Of a DNA stretch of 64,000 nt, positions 4,463 to 50,916 are shown one piece after another. A program made the position numbers and the translations under genes. Source of the DNA: Arthrobacter sp. zg-Y238 (lineage in GTDB: Bacteria; Actinomycetota; Actinomycetes; Actinomycetales; Micrococcaceae); the NCBI RefSeq assembly GCF_024385525.1, contig NZ_JANFLU010000001.1:310001-374000 (forward strand), read 5' to 3'. The notes under the pieces were generated by a model. The model saw nothing but the letters and a program-made list of their open reading frames with translations, was not told the origin of the DNA and did not search any database. Numbering within the stretch: position 1 is the stretch's first letter; each line of letters begins with the position of its first letter.

Positions 4463-5413
4463 CTAGGTGGCCTCCGCCAACTCGGTTTCTTTTTCCCTGC
4501 TCCACGTCCGGGCATAGACCCCGATCAGTGCCTCCTGGCGAAGCGTGAATCCCAGCCGGTTCAACAGGCCGTGCGCCTGGTACACGGTGAGGTGCTGGGC
4601 ACTGCGGCTGGCTCCGGCCTTGTCTGCCCGGTAGAGATAGGTGTCAATGGTCCGCAGCCAGCGCCGGCGCCAGTTCGTGACGGCGGGTTCTGAGGCTGTG
4701 GCCATCATCAGCCTGTGTACCGGCATCAACTGGGCCTGGGCCTGCGCACCCGTGGCCTTCTGCACTCCGGCAGCCCGCGGATCGGAGGCCGTGCAGCTGT
4801 GGAGATGGCTGTCCCAGTAGTACTCCCAGGAGACCCGACGGCGGTCCGGCCACGTGGACGCACGCGGTCCCTTCATCATGGCGTAGGCCGAATCGAAGAG
4901 AAGCAGGGATGCCAGCGCCGACCGGTTCTGCGCCTTCGCAAACCGTGCGGTTGCCCAGAGGCAGAGATCGGAGGAAAGCTCGAAGACCTCCTCCGCCAAG
5001 GCCAGCCCGTCAACACCGCCGTAGCGGGCCACGTCTGCTTCGACCGACGGCAGCAGCGGGTCCGTGCCGATTGTCCGGTCCAGCACCGGTTCGCTGAATT
5101 CATGCTCCACCGTGAGACTTCGCACCGGATCTCCGGACTGCTCCTGCAGTGCCCCCAGCAGGGACTGCAGCCGGTCCAGGGTTTCCGCGGGGGCAAGTAC
5201 CCGAAGCCGGACCTGAGCATTGGACGGCTGCATGCGGCGGGTATAGAACCATCGCTTGGTTCCGCAAAGCCTCGCCTGCGCAACAAGGGGGGTCACAAGT
5301 TCACCGATGATCCGATCGGCCAGTTCAAAACCACCGGCATCAACAGTCAGGTTCCACCACGTGAGGTGGGGGGAGGGGCGGGAGGGAGTTCGGACTGCGG
5401 CTGGCTGAGTCAT
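4463..5413 (-). CDS. Stand-alone LanB C-terminal (glutamate-elimination-like) domain protein, copy 1
   Basis: A 316-residue protein of the thiopeptide-type bacteriocin biosynthesis/SpaB C-terminal domain family. In class I lanthipeptide and thiopeptide pathways this domain removes glutamate from glutamylated Ser/Thr or performs related chemistry. Landmarks include HLTWWNLTVDAGGF near residue 16, LVTPLVAQA, WFYTRRM, YGGVDGLALAEEVFELSSDL near 140 and DTYLYRADKAG near 265. I chose ATG 5413, preceded by GAAAGG at six bases; the frame stays open to 5893 without a convincing earlier start. No LanB N-terminal glutamylation domain, cyclase or obvious precursor lies nearby. It is closely similar throughout to the gene at 46.3 kb. 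Its reaction is unknown. Confidence 0.83.
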   Translation of the reverse strand: MTQPAAVRTPSRPSPHLTWWNLTVDAGGFELADRIIGELVTPLVAQARLCGTKRWFYTRRMQPSNAQVRLRVLAPAETLDRLQSLLGALQEQSGDPVRSLTVEHEFSEPVLDRTIGTDPLLPSVEADVARYGGVDGLALAEEVFELSSDLCLWATARFAKAQNRSALASLLLFDSAYAMMKGPRASTWPDRRRVSWEYYWDSHLHSCTASDPRAAGVQKATGAQAQAQLMPVHRLMMATASEPAVTNWRRRWLRTIDTYLYRADKAGASRSAQHLTVYQAHGLLNRLGFTLRQEALIGVYARTWSREKETELAEAT

Positions 5414-44826: not shown

Positions 44827-45795
44827 TTAGATCCAGCCGGCCTTGTGGGCCTTGATTCCGGCCTGGAACCGGCTCTCGGCACCCAACTCCTCCAGCATCC
44901 AGGCAATGTGGCGGCGGCAGGTCCGCACACTGATGCCAACCCGCCGGGCAATGGCTTCATCCGAGTAACCGGAGGCCAGCGCCGTGAGGACGGACCGCTG
45001 CGTGCTGGTGAGTCCCTCCCTGCCGGGATTGTCGGTCAGGAACGGCTCGGCCAAGCCCCACGCAAACTCGAAGAGCAACCCGAAAATGCGGATCAGGTTG
45101 GTATCCCGCACAACCAGTCCGGCAACGTCGCCGGGGTGCAGATCGCGTGCAACAACCGCCACTTTGTCATCGAAAATCAGGGTTCTCAGGGGCATGTAGG
45201 GAAGGGTGCGGAACTCCCCTCCTGCCTGGGTAATAACTTCCACTGCCTTGCGGGTGGGCACATGGTCCCGCGTGCTTGCGTGGTACAGCGTTTGCCTACG
45301 AACACCGCCGCGCAGGAGATCCAGATCCTTCTGCACGCTTTCCTCATGGATGTCTGCGTTGGCGCCCTGCCCCGGCCGGGCGATCAGGACACGGTCGGTG
45401 GCGCTGCGCCCATACTCGATCAGTACCCGCTGGACTTGCTCCTGGTCCTCGACCACCTCCACCGACGAATCGGCGGCCAGCCGCTTACGTGCCTCGACGT
45501 AGGCCGGGGTCAATGCGGCCATTTCCCGCCGGCGGTTACTGATTCTTCCGCGCAGTTCCAGCAGCGCCCGTTCATCCGGATCCACCAGTTCCGCGAGGGC
45601 AACATCAGGGGAAACCGCGGTGTAGCTTGGGCCGCCCGTGTTCTGCTGCAGCAGGAGGCAGCTGGCGGTCAGTTCGGATATGGCACCGTCGATCACCTTG
45701 CTGGTGTACCCCAAGGCCTCGGAAGCCTCCTTCGCCGTCCACCCCGGACGACTTACGGCAAAGCGGTAAACGTCGAGCGAAACCTGAGACAGCAC
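44827..45795 (-). CDS. TrmB-like/LuxR-type hybrid transcriptional regulator
   Basis: 322 residues from GTG 45795, preceded by GAAAGGA at six bases; the open frame continues upstream through the operator region and is not credible there. The N-terminal winged helix (about 1-65, VYRFAVSRPGWTAKEASEALGY) is of the TrmB type. The middle (about 110-230) resembles the phospholipase-D-like effector region found in this class. The C-terminal LuxR HTH (about 255-320) reads LTSTQRSVLTALASGYSDEA with RVGISVRTCRRHIAWMLEELG after it. It is divergent from the MKSWDWF/LanB-like operon and is the probable regulator of it; regulators of this form often neighbour RiPP-type genes in Actinobacteria. Confidence 0.85.
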   Translation of the reverse strand: MLSQVSLDVYRFAVSRPGWTAKEASEALGYTSKVIDGAISELTASCLLLQQNTGGPSYTAVSPDVALAELVDPDERALLELRGRISNRRREMAALTPAYVEARKRLAADSSVEVVEDQEQVQRVLIEYGRSATDRVLIARPGQGANADIHEESVQKDLDLLRGGVRRQTLYHASTRDHVPTRKAVEVITQAGGEFRTLPYMPLRTLIFDDKVAVVARDLHPGDVAGLVVRDTNLIRIFGLLFEFAWGLAEPFLTDNPGREGLTSTQRSVLTALASGYSDEAIARRVGISVRTCRRHIAWMLEELGAESRFQAGIKAHKAGWI

Positions 45796-45869
45796 GGCGA
45801 ATCCTTTCAACGCATCAGCTGTAGCCCCCACCGCTACCCTACCCAGCCAGCGCGGTTTCCGGGCCGCAC

Positions 45870-45902
45870 GTGACAAAAGTGTTTTGTGACCGCAACACAC
45901 TT
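45870..45902. promoter_or_regulatory. Overlapping palindromes in the regulator/peptide divergent region
   Basis: AAGTGTTTTG (45877-45886) and CAACACACTT (45893-45902) form a 26-base dyad matching at 9 of 10 positions around TGACCG. Overlapping it, GTGACAAAA (45870-45878) and TTTTGTGAC (45882-45890) match at 8 of 9 around GTG. The site lies 75 bases ahead of the regulator start and about 250 bases ahead of the heptapeptide ORF, so it is well placed for autoregulation. A perfect GGCCATGGCC palindrome follows at 45912-45921. Confidence 0.62.
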
Positions 45903-46113
45903 CGGAATTCAGGCCATGGCCGGTTAATGCCAACGACGGCGGCCCAGGGCCCCTGCCGCGGAAAACCTCAGGTCGTGGCGCATCCCGAGGCGGTTGCAGC
46001 CGGAGGCAGGAACCGGGAGGGTCCACATCCGGACATGTCAGGAACCGGGCAGCGGAGGCTATTTACAGGCCGTGCGGCGGCGGGGGAAGCTTTCGGAGTC
46101 AAATCAAGGCGCC

Positions 46114-46257
46114 GGCTGAGCATCAGCCCAAGACCCAAGGGGGATAGCGATCATGAAGAGCTGGGATTGGTTCTAACTGAGGGCCCCGGAGGGGCCAAAG
46201 GCAAGTAACTACACAACTGCAAAGGCCGCCCAGTGGCGGTAACCGCACCCCGAGGGG
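46114..46257 (+). promoter_or_regulatory. Structured leader around the heptapeptide ORF
   Basis: Four short hairpins are visible: GGCTGA/TCAGCC (46114-46128) before the ORF; GGCCCC/GGGGCC with a GGA loop (46182-46196) just after its stop; CCGCC/GGCGG (46226-46239); and CCCCGAGGGG (46248-46257), which includes the ribosome binding site of the LanB-like gene. The CCCC of the second hairpin could alternatively pair with that GGGG. This arrangement resembles a translation-coupled attenuator, although none of the hairpins has a T-run. Confidence 0.45.
46153..46176 (+). CDS. Seven-codon ORF MKSWDWF (candidate micro-precursor or leader peptide)
   Basis: ATG 46153 is preceded by AAGGGGGA with an eight-base spacing, one of the best ribosome binding sites in the region. 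It is followed by AAG AGC TGG GAT TGG TTC TAA. Two Trp codons and a terminal Phe in seven codons are unusual. It lies 91 bases upstream of the LanB-like gene on the same strand, with small hairpins between. It could be the substrate of that enzyme, a secreted or internal signal for the TrmB/LuxR regulator, or a Trp-responsive leader. I know of no named family for it. Confidence 0.5.
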   Translation: MKSWDWF

Positions 46258-46267
46258 AAAGACACAT

Positions 46268-47227
46268 ATGAGCCAGCTAGCTGCAGTTCGACCAGCCTCA
46301 CGGACGCAACCGAGTACTCATTGGTGGTCGCTCTCAATTCATACCGGGGGCTTTGATGTTGCGGACGGCATCATCGGAGAACTGGTTACCCCGCTGGCGG
46401 CTCAGGCCCAGGTTCTGGGTGCGCAGCGCTGGTATTTCACGCGGTGCTCGGATCCGGCTAACGCACACGTAAAACTCCGGGTGCTCGCCCCTACGAGTAC
46501 GTTGGACCGGCTGCAGTCGCTGTTGGTGGCCCTGCAGAACCAGTCCAGCGGTGTCATCGGGCACCTGGAAACCAGCCAGCAGTTCAGCGAGCCGGCTACG
46601 GACCGGCTCAGCCCGGGCGGCGGTGAGCCGCAGGACCTGCGTATCGAAGCGGACCTCGCGAAATACGGCGGCGTGGAGGGGCTCTCCCTCGCGGAAGAGG
46701 TTTTTGAGCTCTCTTCGGATCTGGCGAGTTGGGCCACGGCACGCTTTCCCAAGGTCCAGAACCGCTGGGCACTTGGATCGCTCCTGCTGTTTGATGCGGC
46801 CCGGAGCATGATGAAAGGTCCCCGGGCCTCAGCCTGGCCGGACCGGCGCCGCCTCTCCTGGGACTACTACTGGGACAGCCACCTGCGCAGCTGCACGGCG
46901 GGGTTCGGTCCCCGGGCCGCCGGTGTACGGCAGGCCATGACGGTCCAGGTTGGTGCGAAGGTCATGCCGACCCATCGGCTGATGGCAGCAACGGCAGCGG
47001 AATCCGCCGTCGAAAACTGGCGGCGGCGCTGGTTCCGGGGCATTGACACGTATTTGTACCGGGCGGACAAGGCCCGGCTGAGCCGAAGCGCCCAGCACCT
47101 AACGGTCTATCAGGCACACATGCTTCTGAACCGCCTCGGCCTGAGCCTCCGGGAGGAAGCGGCCATGGGATTGTACGCACGGACTTGGAGTCCGGAACGG
47201 GAATCAGTTCTGCTCGATAAGCGCTGA
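46268..47227 (+). CDS. Stand-alone LanB C-terminal (glutamate-elimination-like) domain protein, copy 2
   Basis: 319 residues of the thiopeptide-type bacteriocin biosynthesis/SpaB C-terminal family, closely similar to the protein at 4.5 kb. Shared blocks include GGFDVADGIIGELVTPLAAQ (near 29), YGGVEGLSLAEEVFELSSDL (near 138), PWDYYWDSHL-like LSWDYYWDSHLRSC (near 197) and GIDTYLYRADKARLSRSAQH (near 259). ATG 46268 has GAGGGGAAAG upstream. In LanB enzymes this domain carries out glutamate elimination and relies on a separate glutamylation domain; that domain is absent here, so the chemistry may differ. Context is regulator, heptapeptide ORF and a 62-residue protein. Confidence 0.87.
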   Translation: MSQLAAVRPASRTQPSTHWWSLSIHTGGFDVADGIIGELVTPLAAQAQVLGAQRWYFTRCSDPANAHVKLRVLAPTSTLDRLQSLLVALQNQSSGVIGHLETSQQFSEPATDRLSPGGGEPQDLRIEADLAKYGGVEGLSLAEEVFELSSDLASWATARFPKVQNRWALGSLLLFDAARSMMKGPRASAWPDRRRLSWDYYWDSHLRSCTAGFGPRAAGVRQAMTVQVGAKVMPTHRLMAATAAESAVENWRRRWFRGIDTYLYRADKARLSRSAQHLTVYQAHMLLNRLGLSLREEAAMGLYARTWSPERESVLLDKR

Positions 47228-47258
47228 ACCTGCGCGCAATGGGAAGGGGGCCCATCCG

Positions 47259-47447
47259 GTGGCCGATCATGAAGAAGTAGTGGTAGCGGACGCGCAGGAA
47301 CTCGGCTCGGTCCTTGGCTGCTCGGATGACGTCTTGGCCGATCTGCAGAACAGCGGGGTCCTGGCGCCCTACGGTGAAGCCTGGAATGTTGGCCCGGCGC
47401 GTGAATACCTGAGGGACGCGGCCTGGGCGGACGAGGTCTGGTACTAG
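47259..47447 (+). CDS. Small acidic protein (62 aa) ending in WY, candidate peptide partner
   Basis: GTG 47259 follows GGAAGGGGG and lies 31 bases after the LanB-like stop, in the same operon and before the terminator. The protein (MADHEEVVVADAQELGSVLG... ) is strongly acidic, mostly helical, has one Cys (GCSDD) and ends AAWADEVWY. It could be a RiPP precursor or carrier whose C-terminus is modified, or a small DNA-binding or accessory protein; its first half is faintly like a MerR-type helix-turn-helix. I do not recognise a family. Confidence 0.68.
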   Translation: MADHEEVVVADAQELGSVLGCSDDVLADLQNSGVLAPYGEAWNVGPAREYLRDAAWADEVWY

Positions 47448-47462
47448 AAGGACGCCGAACGC

Positions 47463-47500
47463 AGAAGAGGGACGGACCAGTGACGGTCCGTCCCTCTTTT
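47463..47500 (+). terminator. Factor-independent terminator of the LanB-like operon
   Basis: GAGGGACGGACC (47467-47478) pairs perfectly with GGTCCGTCCCTC (47485-47496) around AGTGAC, followed by TTTT. It closes the unit that begins with the heptapeptide ORF, and with the A's on the left side may serve the convergent FMN reductase gene too. Confidence 0.92.
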
Positions 47501-47513
47501 CTGTCTGCTTTGC

Positions 47514-48071
47514 CTAGGCTGCGGAGACAGAGGCTTCTGCGAGAACGCGGACGGCCTCGCCGAGCTGGGCAACGGTGTCCGGGTCATCCTGCGGGTGGAT
47601 GCCGTCGTAGCGCGTCACGGATCCGCCGATGGCGAGGCGGACTTCCTCGACCACGCGGGCGCCGGCGATGCCGACCGACTTGCGTGCATCGTCCTGTGCC
47701 CAAACACCGCCGTACTGGCCGAAGGCAGAGCCGATGACGGCGGTGGGCATGCCGGAGATGGCACCGGCACCGAAGGGGCGGGACAGCCAGTCAATCGCAT
47801 TCTTCAGCACGGCAGGCATGGTGCCGTTGTATTCGGGGCTGATCAGCAGCAGGCCGTCAGAAGCAGCGGCCGCGTTGCGCAGGGCCTGTGCTGCTTCGGG
47901 GACGAGCCCCTCTACGTCGATATCCTCGTTGTAGAACGGAATGTCGCCCAACCCCTCAAAGAGCTTCACCTCGACGCCTTCCGGAGCGCCGGCGGCGGCG
48001 GCTTCAGCGAGCTGGCGGTTGATGGAACCGACGCGGAGGCTGCCGACGAGGGTCAGGATGGTGGTGCTCAA
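47514..48071 (-). CDS. NAD(P)H-dependent FMN reductase / quinone reductase-like flavoprotein
   Basis: 185 residues from a TTG at 48071 with AGGAG eight bases upstream; there is no ATG or GTG alternative nearby. Family motifs: LVGSLRVGSINRQLAEAA (phosphate loop near 10) and LLISPEYNGTMPAVLKNAID with WLSRPFG after it (near 75), which bind FMN. This is the NADPH-dependent FMN reductase/azoreductase-like (SsuE/YhdA) family. The divergent TetR gene and the palindrome between them suggest induction by a quinone or similar compound. Confidence 0.9.
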   Translation of the reverse strand: MSTTILTLVGSLRVGSINRQLAEAAAAGAPEGVEVKLFEGLGDIPFYNEDIDVEGLVPEAAQALRNAAAASDGLLLISPEYNGTMPAVLKNAIDWLSRPFGAGAISGMPTAVIGSAFGQYGGVWAQDDARKSVGIAGARVVEEVRLAIGGSVTRYDGIHPQDDPDTVAQLGEAVRVLAEASVSAA

Positions 48072-49578: not shown

Positions 49579-50916
49579 TTGGTGCAAATCAAGGAACGGA
49601 TCGAAGATTCGCGGATGAGCCCGCGGCAGGTGGCTATTATTGCCATTTGCACCACCCTTTACATGATCGACGGCTTCGATGTCCTGGTCATGGCCTTCAG
49701 CGCCAGCCATGTGGCCGAAGAGTGGGGATTGAACGGCGCACAGCTGGGCTACCTGCTCAGCGCAGCACTGGTGGGCATGGCTGTCGGATCTATCTTCGTC
49801 TCGACGGTCGCGGACATTATCGGGCGGCAGAAAACGCTGCTGATCGGTGTCTGCATTGTTGCCGCAGGCATGCTGGCCTCCTACTTTGCCCCGAACTATG
49901 CGGTGCTGCTGATTCTCCGCCTCCTGACGGGCGTGGCCATTGGAACGCTCCAGTCCACCATCAGTGTCTTCGCCTCTGAGTTCTCCAATGCCAAGCGCCG
50001 ATCCACGGCCCTGTCCCTCGTCAGCATCGGGCAGCCAATCGGCGGCGTCCTCGGCGGCCTGATCAGCGGCGTTTTGATCAGCCAATACGGCTGGCGTTCG
50101 GCCTTCCTGTTCGGCGCCGTCGTCACCATCCTGATGATTCCGCTGGTGATGAAGGTATTCCCGGAATCGGTCGACTATCTGTTGACCCGCCGGCCTGCAG
50201 GCGCACTGGAACGGGTCAACCGCAGCCTGCGGGCCATCCGGCAGCCGGCCGTGGATGTGCTGCCGGAATCCGTGCTGGCGGAGCAGAACAAATCCCGTTT
50301 TGCGGACGTCCTTACCGGCTACAACGCCCGCCGAACCATCCTGCTGGCCCTGGCCTACTTTGTCCTTATGGCGAGCTTCTACTTCGCGAACTCCTGGACG
50401 CCCCGGCTGATTGCGGAAAGCGGTTTCACCGCCCAGGACGGCATCAATGCTGGAGTGCTGTTCAGCGTCGGGGCAATTGTCGGCGGCGTCCTGCTGGGCC
50501 TGCTCGGTGCACGCTTCCCCATGCGCAAGGTCCTGGCCGTGTTCTTCGTGATCGGGGCCGCCACTTTCGTCGTGTTCGCCAACTCGACCAACGGTTCGCT
50601 TGGCTGGGCCCTGTTCGCGGCAGCGCTGGTAGGGTTCGGCTCCAACGCGCCCATCGCCGGTATGTTGGCGATCAGCCCCACCTACTACACGAGTGAGGTC
50701 CGCGGCACGGCTCTGGGACTGGTGATCGGCATGGGCCGCATCGGCGCCATCATCTCGCCGATCCTGGCCGGTACCCTGATGGACGGCGGCTGGACGCCCG
50801 GTGACTTGTACTTCCTGTTCGTTATCCCGATGGCACTGGGCGCCGTCATCATTTCCATGCTCGGCCAGCCGGTCCTTCGCGGACCCAGCCCCAAGGCTGC
50901 CGCACCGGTTCACTGA
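49579..50916 (+). CDS. MFS transporter, aromatic acid:H+ symporter-like
   Basis: About 445 residues with twelve predicted membrane helices. The conserved MFS loop between helices 2 and 3 is STVADIIGRQKTLLIG (near 75), and the DGFD motif MIDGFDVLVMAF in helix 1 is typical of the AAHS group (PcaK/BenK), which imports benzoate-like acids. The start is uncertain: TTG 49579, GTG 49582 (leaderless after a TAGCTT -10-like element) or ATG 49615 are all possible. It is divergent from the MarR-like regulator. Confidence 0.88.
   Translation: MVQIKERIEDSRMSPRQVAIIAICTTLYMIDGFDVLVMAFSASHVAEEWGLNGAQLGYLLSAALVGMAVGSIFVSTVADIIGRQKTLLIGVCIVAAGMLASYFAPNYAVLLILRLLTGVAIGTLQSTISVFASEFSNAKRRSTALSLVSIGQPIGGVLGGLISGVLISQYGWRSAFLFGAVVTILMIPLVMKVFPESVDYLLTRRPAGALERVNRSLRAIRQPAVDVLPESVLAEQNKSRFADVLTGYNARRTILLALAYFVLMASFYFANSWTPRLIAESGFTAQDGINAGVLFSVGAIVGGVLLGLLGARFPMRKVLAVFFVIGAATFVVFANSTNGSLGWALFAAALVGFGSNAPIAGMLAISPTYYTSEVRGTALGLVIGMGRIGAIISPILAGTLMDGGWTPGDLYFLFVIPMALGAVIISMLGQPVLRGPSPKAAAPVH

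Follow-up and report, generated by a model that had tools for sequence, protein, structure and literature searches.

A W-x-W peptide cassette of Micrococcaceae with a stand-alone LanB-C-like protein as a candidate autoregulated peptide signal

We analyzed a 64,000-nucleotide stretch of Arthrobacter sp. zg-Y238 (contig NZ_JANFLU010000001.1, positions 310,001–374,000; hereafter the window), in which a seven-codon gene encoding MKSWDWF lies between a divergent regulator gene and the genes for a 319-amino-acid (aa) LanB-C-like protein (hereafter the enzyme) and an acidic 62-aa protein. A sequence-only reading of the window had proposed that these four genes form one peptide locus; all four were present where it had placed them, and the parts recur together in relatives. 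Genome comparisons show the regulator and the peptide occurring together with the LanB-C-like protein and with a small protein whose tail carries R-D-x-x-W-A, and MKSWDWF seems to be the shortest member of a conserved W-x-W peptide family. We consider the locus a member of a Micrococcaceae W-x-W peptide cassette that may act as an autoregulated peptide signal, with a probability of about 0.5. The features are as follows.

44827–45795, minus strand: divergent regulator gene, taken from a GTG; LuxR-type C-terminal domain, TrmB-like
45914–45932, plus strand: operator-like element A, CCATGGCCGGTTAATGCCA (pattern match and genome scan)
46034–46050, plus strand: operator-like element B, CATGTCAGGAACCGGGC (loose pattern)
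46153–46176, plus strand: peptide gene MKSWDWF with W-x-W core (recurrence in relatives)
46182–46196, plus strand: hairpin GGCCCC-GGA-GGGGCC directly 3' of the peptide stop codon (fold)
46225–46244, plus strand: conserved element GCCGCCCAGTGGCGGTAACC, 5' of the enzyme gene (alignments)
46268–47227, plus strand: stand-alone Lant_dehydr_C (SpaB_C)-like protein, 319 aa (Pfam, NCBIfam)
47259–47447, plus strand: acidic 62-aa protein with C-terminus RDAAWADEVWY (homologues 3' of the enzyme gene in relatives)
47466–47497, plus strand: strong terminator-like hairpin 3' of the operon (fold)
4463–5413, minus strand: paralogous stand-alone Lant_dehydr_C gene, product 66% identical to that of 46268–47227

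The W-x-W peptide family and its partner genes

Loci were oriented to the gene strand and scored for a W-x-W open reading frame (ORF) with a ribosome-binding-site-like sequence 5' of the enzyme gene. Such an ORF was found in 29 of 29 genus genomes, as the sequence-only reading had put forward for checking, and in 19 of the 22 non-genus family genomes with the enzyme, the remaining three comprising one Y-D-W and two split-LanB clusters. By locus, 50 of 53 scanned passed; the failing ones were L118, with IYDWP in place of W-x-W, and L119 and L120, which are clusters of ribosomally synthesized and post-translationally modified peptides (RiPPs) containing YcaO and LanB-N. L117 also passed, in a separate scan of longer range. 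As a control, 42 enzyme-only paralog loci were scored, of which five passed with ORFs resembling neither each other nor the family; these chance-like ORFs were rejected as family members. By these counts, the recurrence of the W-x-W ORF is beyond chance.

The peptide is MKSWDWF in 12 of the 29 genus genomes, ...KSWEWF in nine, and ...KVWDWI/L in eight. Eighteen of the 19 non-genus W-x-W ORFs encode precursors of 44–93 residues with a signal-peptide-like start, as read by eye, and one to six cores; L048, for example, encodes MKKIIGAAAGILVAAAALAPATPAVGAASWDWPKTVTASWDWPK from a GTG start. L100 contains six VWDWPQQ copies, and L117 contains three NWEWPK copies. The sole short form among the 19 is L121 (22 residues, without a signal-like start). 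At L121:1334–1402, turned to the gene strand, we observed a divergent cassette with MTASAARRIWAWPESWPILGRK and a regulator of 40% identity, near a contig end in a fragmented genome.

Cores are mostly fixed inside clades and different across them: SWDWF, SWEWF, VWDWI/L, and, in the non-genus precursors, SWDWPK, NWEWPK, VWDWPQQ, and AWDW. What stays constant in the core is the Trp pair, since the middle residue varies: it is mostly D or E, but L105 has G and L121 has A. In each of the five precursor groups, pairwise substitutions were most numerous at the third codon position (positions 1/2/3: 138/94/289, 53/15/83, 193/169/376, 56/19/74, and 12/13/23; pairs are not independent), a bias that fits coding selection on these sequences. 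The own genome has two other sites able to code [S/T/C..]WDWF, both within longer reading frames.

These precursors bear on another reading, in which the tiny ORF would serve to attenuate the downstream genes as a leader peptide with Trp codons. Two of its seven codons are Trp and a hairpin stands directly 3' of its stop codon, but relatives have long signal-peptide-like precursors, some multi-core, with codon bias fitting coding selection, and the hairpin has no following T-run. We regard this reading as very unlikely. The hairpin at 46182–46196 has a z of −1.6, with 14 of 200 shuffles folding equally well; inverted repeats of differing sequence were seen by eye at the same place after the peptide stop in genus relatives.

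All 29 genus loci encode, 3' of the enzyme gene, a small protein ending in R-D-(A/Q)-(A/V)-W-A...W, which also agrees with the sequence-only reading, and so do all 20 other W-x-W loci examined; these counts leave out L117, and one pattern scan alone was too narrow. Pfam returned no family for the window's 62-aa protein, and candidate families for its relatives were rejected as weak matches below cut-off, including HTH_17 at E 0.21. The C-terminal tail is the best conserved part of the protein, and in the g8 group (L109–L115) it persists although the N-terminal part has diverged. This would suit a reading in which the tail RDAAWADEVWY is the true substrate, with the W-x-W peptide just regulating or imitating it. 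However, L118 aside, W-x-W is conserved in a larger number of loci than those in which the tail was detected, also in repeated cores, and we consider a 62-aa substrate quite unlikely.

The enzyme matched proteins in 29 of 29 genus genomes and, separately, in 23 named loci. Its profile matched 30 of 149 family genomes, eight of them from the genus, and 25 of 394 genomes of the class, namely two Micrococcaceae, five strong, and 18 weak matches (E above 1e-15). Of the 30 enzyme-bearing family genomes, 29 also had the regulator (E at most 1e-25). The enzyme occurred without the regulator in one of the 149 (G033, a split-LanB cluster), and the regulator without the enzyme in two (G071 and G075, partial weak matches). 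In these counts the two surveys, each a draw of 149, are taken as the same genomes from the handles shown, and part of the matches are not independent because both profiles include rows from surveyed genomes (for the regulator, the own genome, G032, G050, G053, and G062).

The genomic place is largely shared, because a homologue of the window's aminotransferase lies within about 6 kb in nine of 12 loci compared; the same count was obtained for an alanine dehydrogenase homologue (both named by eye). In L053 and L055 the aminotransferase is farther away and the cassette is still whole.

The LanB-C-like protein and its candidate chemistry

The 319-aa protein matched Pfam Lant_dehydr_C with 71.2 bits (cut-off 24.4) over nearly the whole model, and NCBIfam TIGR03891 with 51.3 bits, just over the cut-off of 48.45. 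Its nearest named records are from Arthrobacter (98–96% identity), and no match was found in the plasmid collection. A PDB sequence search with the enzyme profile gave only one LanB (E 0.0095) and one chance match, and the same search with a split-LanB relative gave four LanB-type chains. Distant relatives of the enzyme include LanB-C genes from split-LanB RiPP clusters.

A single stand-alone LanB-C-like gene had been described for the window. The gene at 46268–47227 is indeed present, but a second lies at 4463–5413 and a third elsewhere in the genome. Within about 1.5 kb of 4463–5413 there was neither a passing W-x-W ORF nor a regulator homologue; its neighbours are a GAF-type regulator-like gene and a PAS/histidine-kinase-like gene (labels by eye). 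Genus genomes have up to seven enzyme matches each, with many enzyme-only paralogs, some of them clustered (G025:C1:440257-452057; G018:C1:1756641-1784613). Fifteen promoters of third-type paralogs were aligned, and their common motif differs from that of the cassette. The stretch upstream of these paralogs (L003:1310-1420 and relatives) carries TATGGACATT and AACACACTGTTG-like repeats, and GCAACACACT occurs near 45896 too, between the window's regulator and peptide. A tree built from 92 enzyme rows places the 42 rows of paralogs among W-x-W-linked ones, suggesting that linkage to the peptide came first and the paralogs were copied later; the tree is midpoint-rooted, its long branches leave deep joins unsure, and a single paralog group is weakly supported (48/36).

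We then compared the active-site equivalents in 62 enzyme rows, some genomes being entered twice. NisB R784, R786, and R826 were mapped through the alignment of a split-LanB protein to chain 4wd9, and H961 by eye through the HM..NR motif. The equivalents were R33 K27 Q1 V1 for R784, R40 K14 S5 H3 for R786, K49 R10 T3 for R826, and H58 Q4 for H961. The R826 site is little informative, because split-LanB controls carry K there too. His is thus kept in 58 of 62 rows at the H961 equivalent, and the accessible part of one report states that H961A abolished dehydration in NisB (PMC4341554). Across the 62 rows, 72 positions are invariant.

Counted from one residue before the first W-x-W through the end, nine of 20 representative cores have no Ser/Thr and none of the 20 has Cys; several Ser/Thr-free cores have Ser/Thr just upstream, as in MTSKVWDWI, and the window's own core has one Ser. 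A search for LanB-N (PF04738) found none in the own genome or in a same-species genome of one contig, and matched the controls G033 and G050, the latter below the curated cut-off. LanC (PF05147) was found in none of the four genomes searched, the own genome included, and in one of 14 named control genomes, and YcaO was found in neither G000 nor G009, with G033 and G050 matched as controls. These searches bear out the sequence-only reading that no LanB glutamylation domain and no cyclase accompany the locus. The LanB elimination chemistry that it had implied was not supported: because the NisB equivalents vary, nine of 20 cores lack Ser/Thr, and LanB-N, LanC, and YcaO were not found in the own genome, Ser/Thr dehydration as the general function seems unlikely on sequence grounds, single clades possibly apart. 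Of the marks of a class I lanthipeptide, LanB-N, LanC, and a core with Ser/Thr and Cys were not found here, and neither was YcaO, the mark of thiopeptide/azole RiPPs (G000, G009).

The same results bear on an ordinary split class I dehydratase with its LanB-N partner encoded elsewhere. The distant relatives L158 and L159 are split-LanB clusters; against this stand the PF04738, LanC, and YcaO searches and cores without Cys and often without Ser/Thr, which leave such an enzyme extremely unlikely. We regard as possible, though tentative, a new RiPP/pheromone class in which a lone LanB elimination-like enzyme, with no glutamyl-tRNA-dependent LanB-N, modifies W-x-W cores by Trp- or backbone-directed chemistry and the TrmB-LuxR regulator senses the product. 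Its precursors would span sizes from polyproteins of six cores and secreted appearance to a gene product of seven residues.

The regulator, operator-like elements, and an autoregulated signal

The divergent gene had been read as encoding a TrmB/LuxR hybrid. The LuxR-type C-terminal domain was confirmed (GerE, 36.3 bits), but the TrmB part is weakly matched: Pfam Regulator_TrmB was found in four of nine members scanned, with a best E of 6.4e-4 and the window's protein not among the listed matches, and TrmBL2 structures matched the regulator at E 0.03. No TPR match was among its listed domain matches; the genome's other genes were not searched for a TPR receptor. The conserved part starts at a GTG near 45795 (start codon assigned by eye), and the listed ORF is open further upstream. 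Each of the 29 genus genomes has one near-full-length ortholog, which in five of them (G002, G003, G022, G023, and G024) is not adjacent to the enzyme gene but about 9–12 kb away. The accessible portion of a paper on Arthrobacter luxR (PMC9659744) mentions neither TrmB nor lantibiotic nor thiopeptide.

Between regulator and peptide, the pattern CATGNCNNNTTAATGNCA, which was chosen after the alignments were viewed, matched 38 of 52 loci and none of the 44 controls; the element A site is unique in the own genome at up to three mismatches. Element B, with a loose pattern, was found in 31 of 52 loci, a count without control. A GCCGCCCAGTGGCGGTAACC-like element between the peptide and enzyme genes is common to alignments of several genera and may be an RNA control element; the fold around 46225–46244 is not exceptional (z −1.2 only), and an Rfam scan of 45700–47600 gave five matches, all below the gathering score. 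As for the terminator said to close the operon, the hairpin at 47466–47497 is strong (13 pairs; 47455–47512 at −34.3 kcal/mol, z −6.8), but the terminator scan listed none in the operon region.

We favour the autoregulated signal because a clade-specific short peptide is coupled to a one-component regulator, with an operator-like element in common, because no genus genome examined lacks the cassette, and because most precursors from outside the genus have the look of exported proteins. After export, the precursor would be cleaved to give a short W-x-W peptide; where the core alone remains, as in the window's clade, the peptide would leave the cell by another route or act inside. The LanB-C-like protein, which is related to the split LanB of azole RiPPs, would bind the peptide and probably alter it by non-dehydration chemistry. 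The TrmB-LuxR protein would read the peptide, directly or via the small protein, and control the operon at the CATG...TTAATG elements; we infer autoregulation from position.

Several observations weigh against this signal. Neither a peptide receptor of a known kind nor an exporter or protease was recognised within the cassette, and in the window's clade (12 genomes) the gene is the core only, seven codons long (eight in one genome, with an alternative start) and without an export signal. The search for element A failed in 14 of 52 loci, including all seven of the AWDW/IWDW group, and no small protein turned up next to the two most divergent enzymes, L118 and L121, of which L121 stands at a contig end. 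In four genomes (G006 [L056], G022 [L049], G167 [L117], and that of L054) the peptide ORF is retained although the enzyme ORF is broken, through either decay or assembly error. Finally, the mostly kept H961 equivalent leaves room for LanB-like catalysis.

The cassette could otherwise encode an antimicrobial micro-RiPP on a W-x-W scaffold, the small protein serving immunity or maturation. The W-x-W cores, several of them W-x-W-P-K, and the kinship of the enzyme with RiPP enzymes accord with this, and darobactin has a WNW core. Bacteriocins are, however, typically patchy in distribution, unlike a cassette that all 29 genus genomes carry; reading of the flanks showed no radical SAM or P450 gene, with no search aimed at these, and a homologue of an MFS-type gene was found in just two of 12 loci compared. 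We judge an antimicrobial unlikely. The window's MFS-type gene (label by eye) lies at 49579–50916.

Relation to known systems and meaning

The split LanB clusters L158 and L159 of other Micrococcaceae, which we take to be of goadsporin/thiopeptide type, resemble the cassette in having a separate Lant_dehydr_C gene, and L159 has, 3' of its LanB-C gene, a TrmB/LuxR regulator homologous to the window's (32% identity). In contrast, they contain LanB-N and YcaO, which were not found in the window's genome, and nitroreductase-like and M50 genes (by Pfam in L159, by eye in L158), whereas the window's system has a W-x-W core peptide.

With RRNPP/ComRS-like systems, the cassette shares a short conserved peptide ORF tied to a regulator. 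To our knowledge, a LanB-C-like partner is not part of ComRS. The accessible part of a ComRS study describes, in Streptococcus, a very short ORF adjoining the regulator and a Trp motif near the C-terminus, short Trp-motif peptides acting as pheromones, some with a split Trp pair (PMC5131902). ComRS has an HTH-TPR receptor, whereas the window's cassette has the TrmB-LuxR regulator, and the likeness serves as a working analogy, with no claim of membership. A further reading is an unmodified ComRS-like pheromone with the LanB-C-like protein as binder, chaperone, or co-receptor that has lost catalysis. In its favour, the NisB R784, R786, R826, and H961 equivalents vary in the 62 rows, and ComRS pheromones carry WW, or in S. 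suis a Trp pair split by Gly, according to the same part of that study (PMC5131902). On the other hand, the 72 invariant positions and the mostly kept H961 equivalent fit an enzyme, and the regulator has no listed TPR-type receptor match; we consider an unmodified pheromone doubtful.

A seven-residue precursor is thinkable because biarylitide precursors, in the accessible part of one report the smallest known (PMC12951456), are so small; biarylitides differ in their P450 cross-linking, no P450 gene having been noticed here, with no search aimed at P450. PEARL systems, as far as the available parts of two reports go, likewise put a LanB-related enzyme to other chemistry (PMC11962472, PMC11212132), but attach amino acids from aminoacyl-tRNA. 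The window's genome was searched for a LanB-N-type domain and none was found. PEARLs rest on such a domain.

In line with the sequence-only reading, the literature searched gave no description of this gene set; subscription papers were mostly outside its scope, and absence is unproven. The cassette would be known peptide-signal/RiPP logic in a new form, and categorically new if the lone LanB-C-like protein modifies W-x-W. A peptide family is gained with members too short for ordinary gene finding, and an orphan type of stand-alone LanB-C protein is tied to a defined partner peptide, a candidate substrate in about 50 loci, by which the function of such proteins becomes testable. The series from a six-core precursor to a seven-codon gene indicates how far a peptide gene may shrink. 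If the peptide is a signal, Micrococcaceae would have peptide communication with a receptor type unlike RRNPP.

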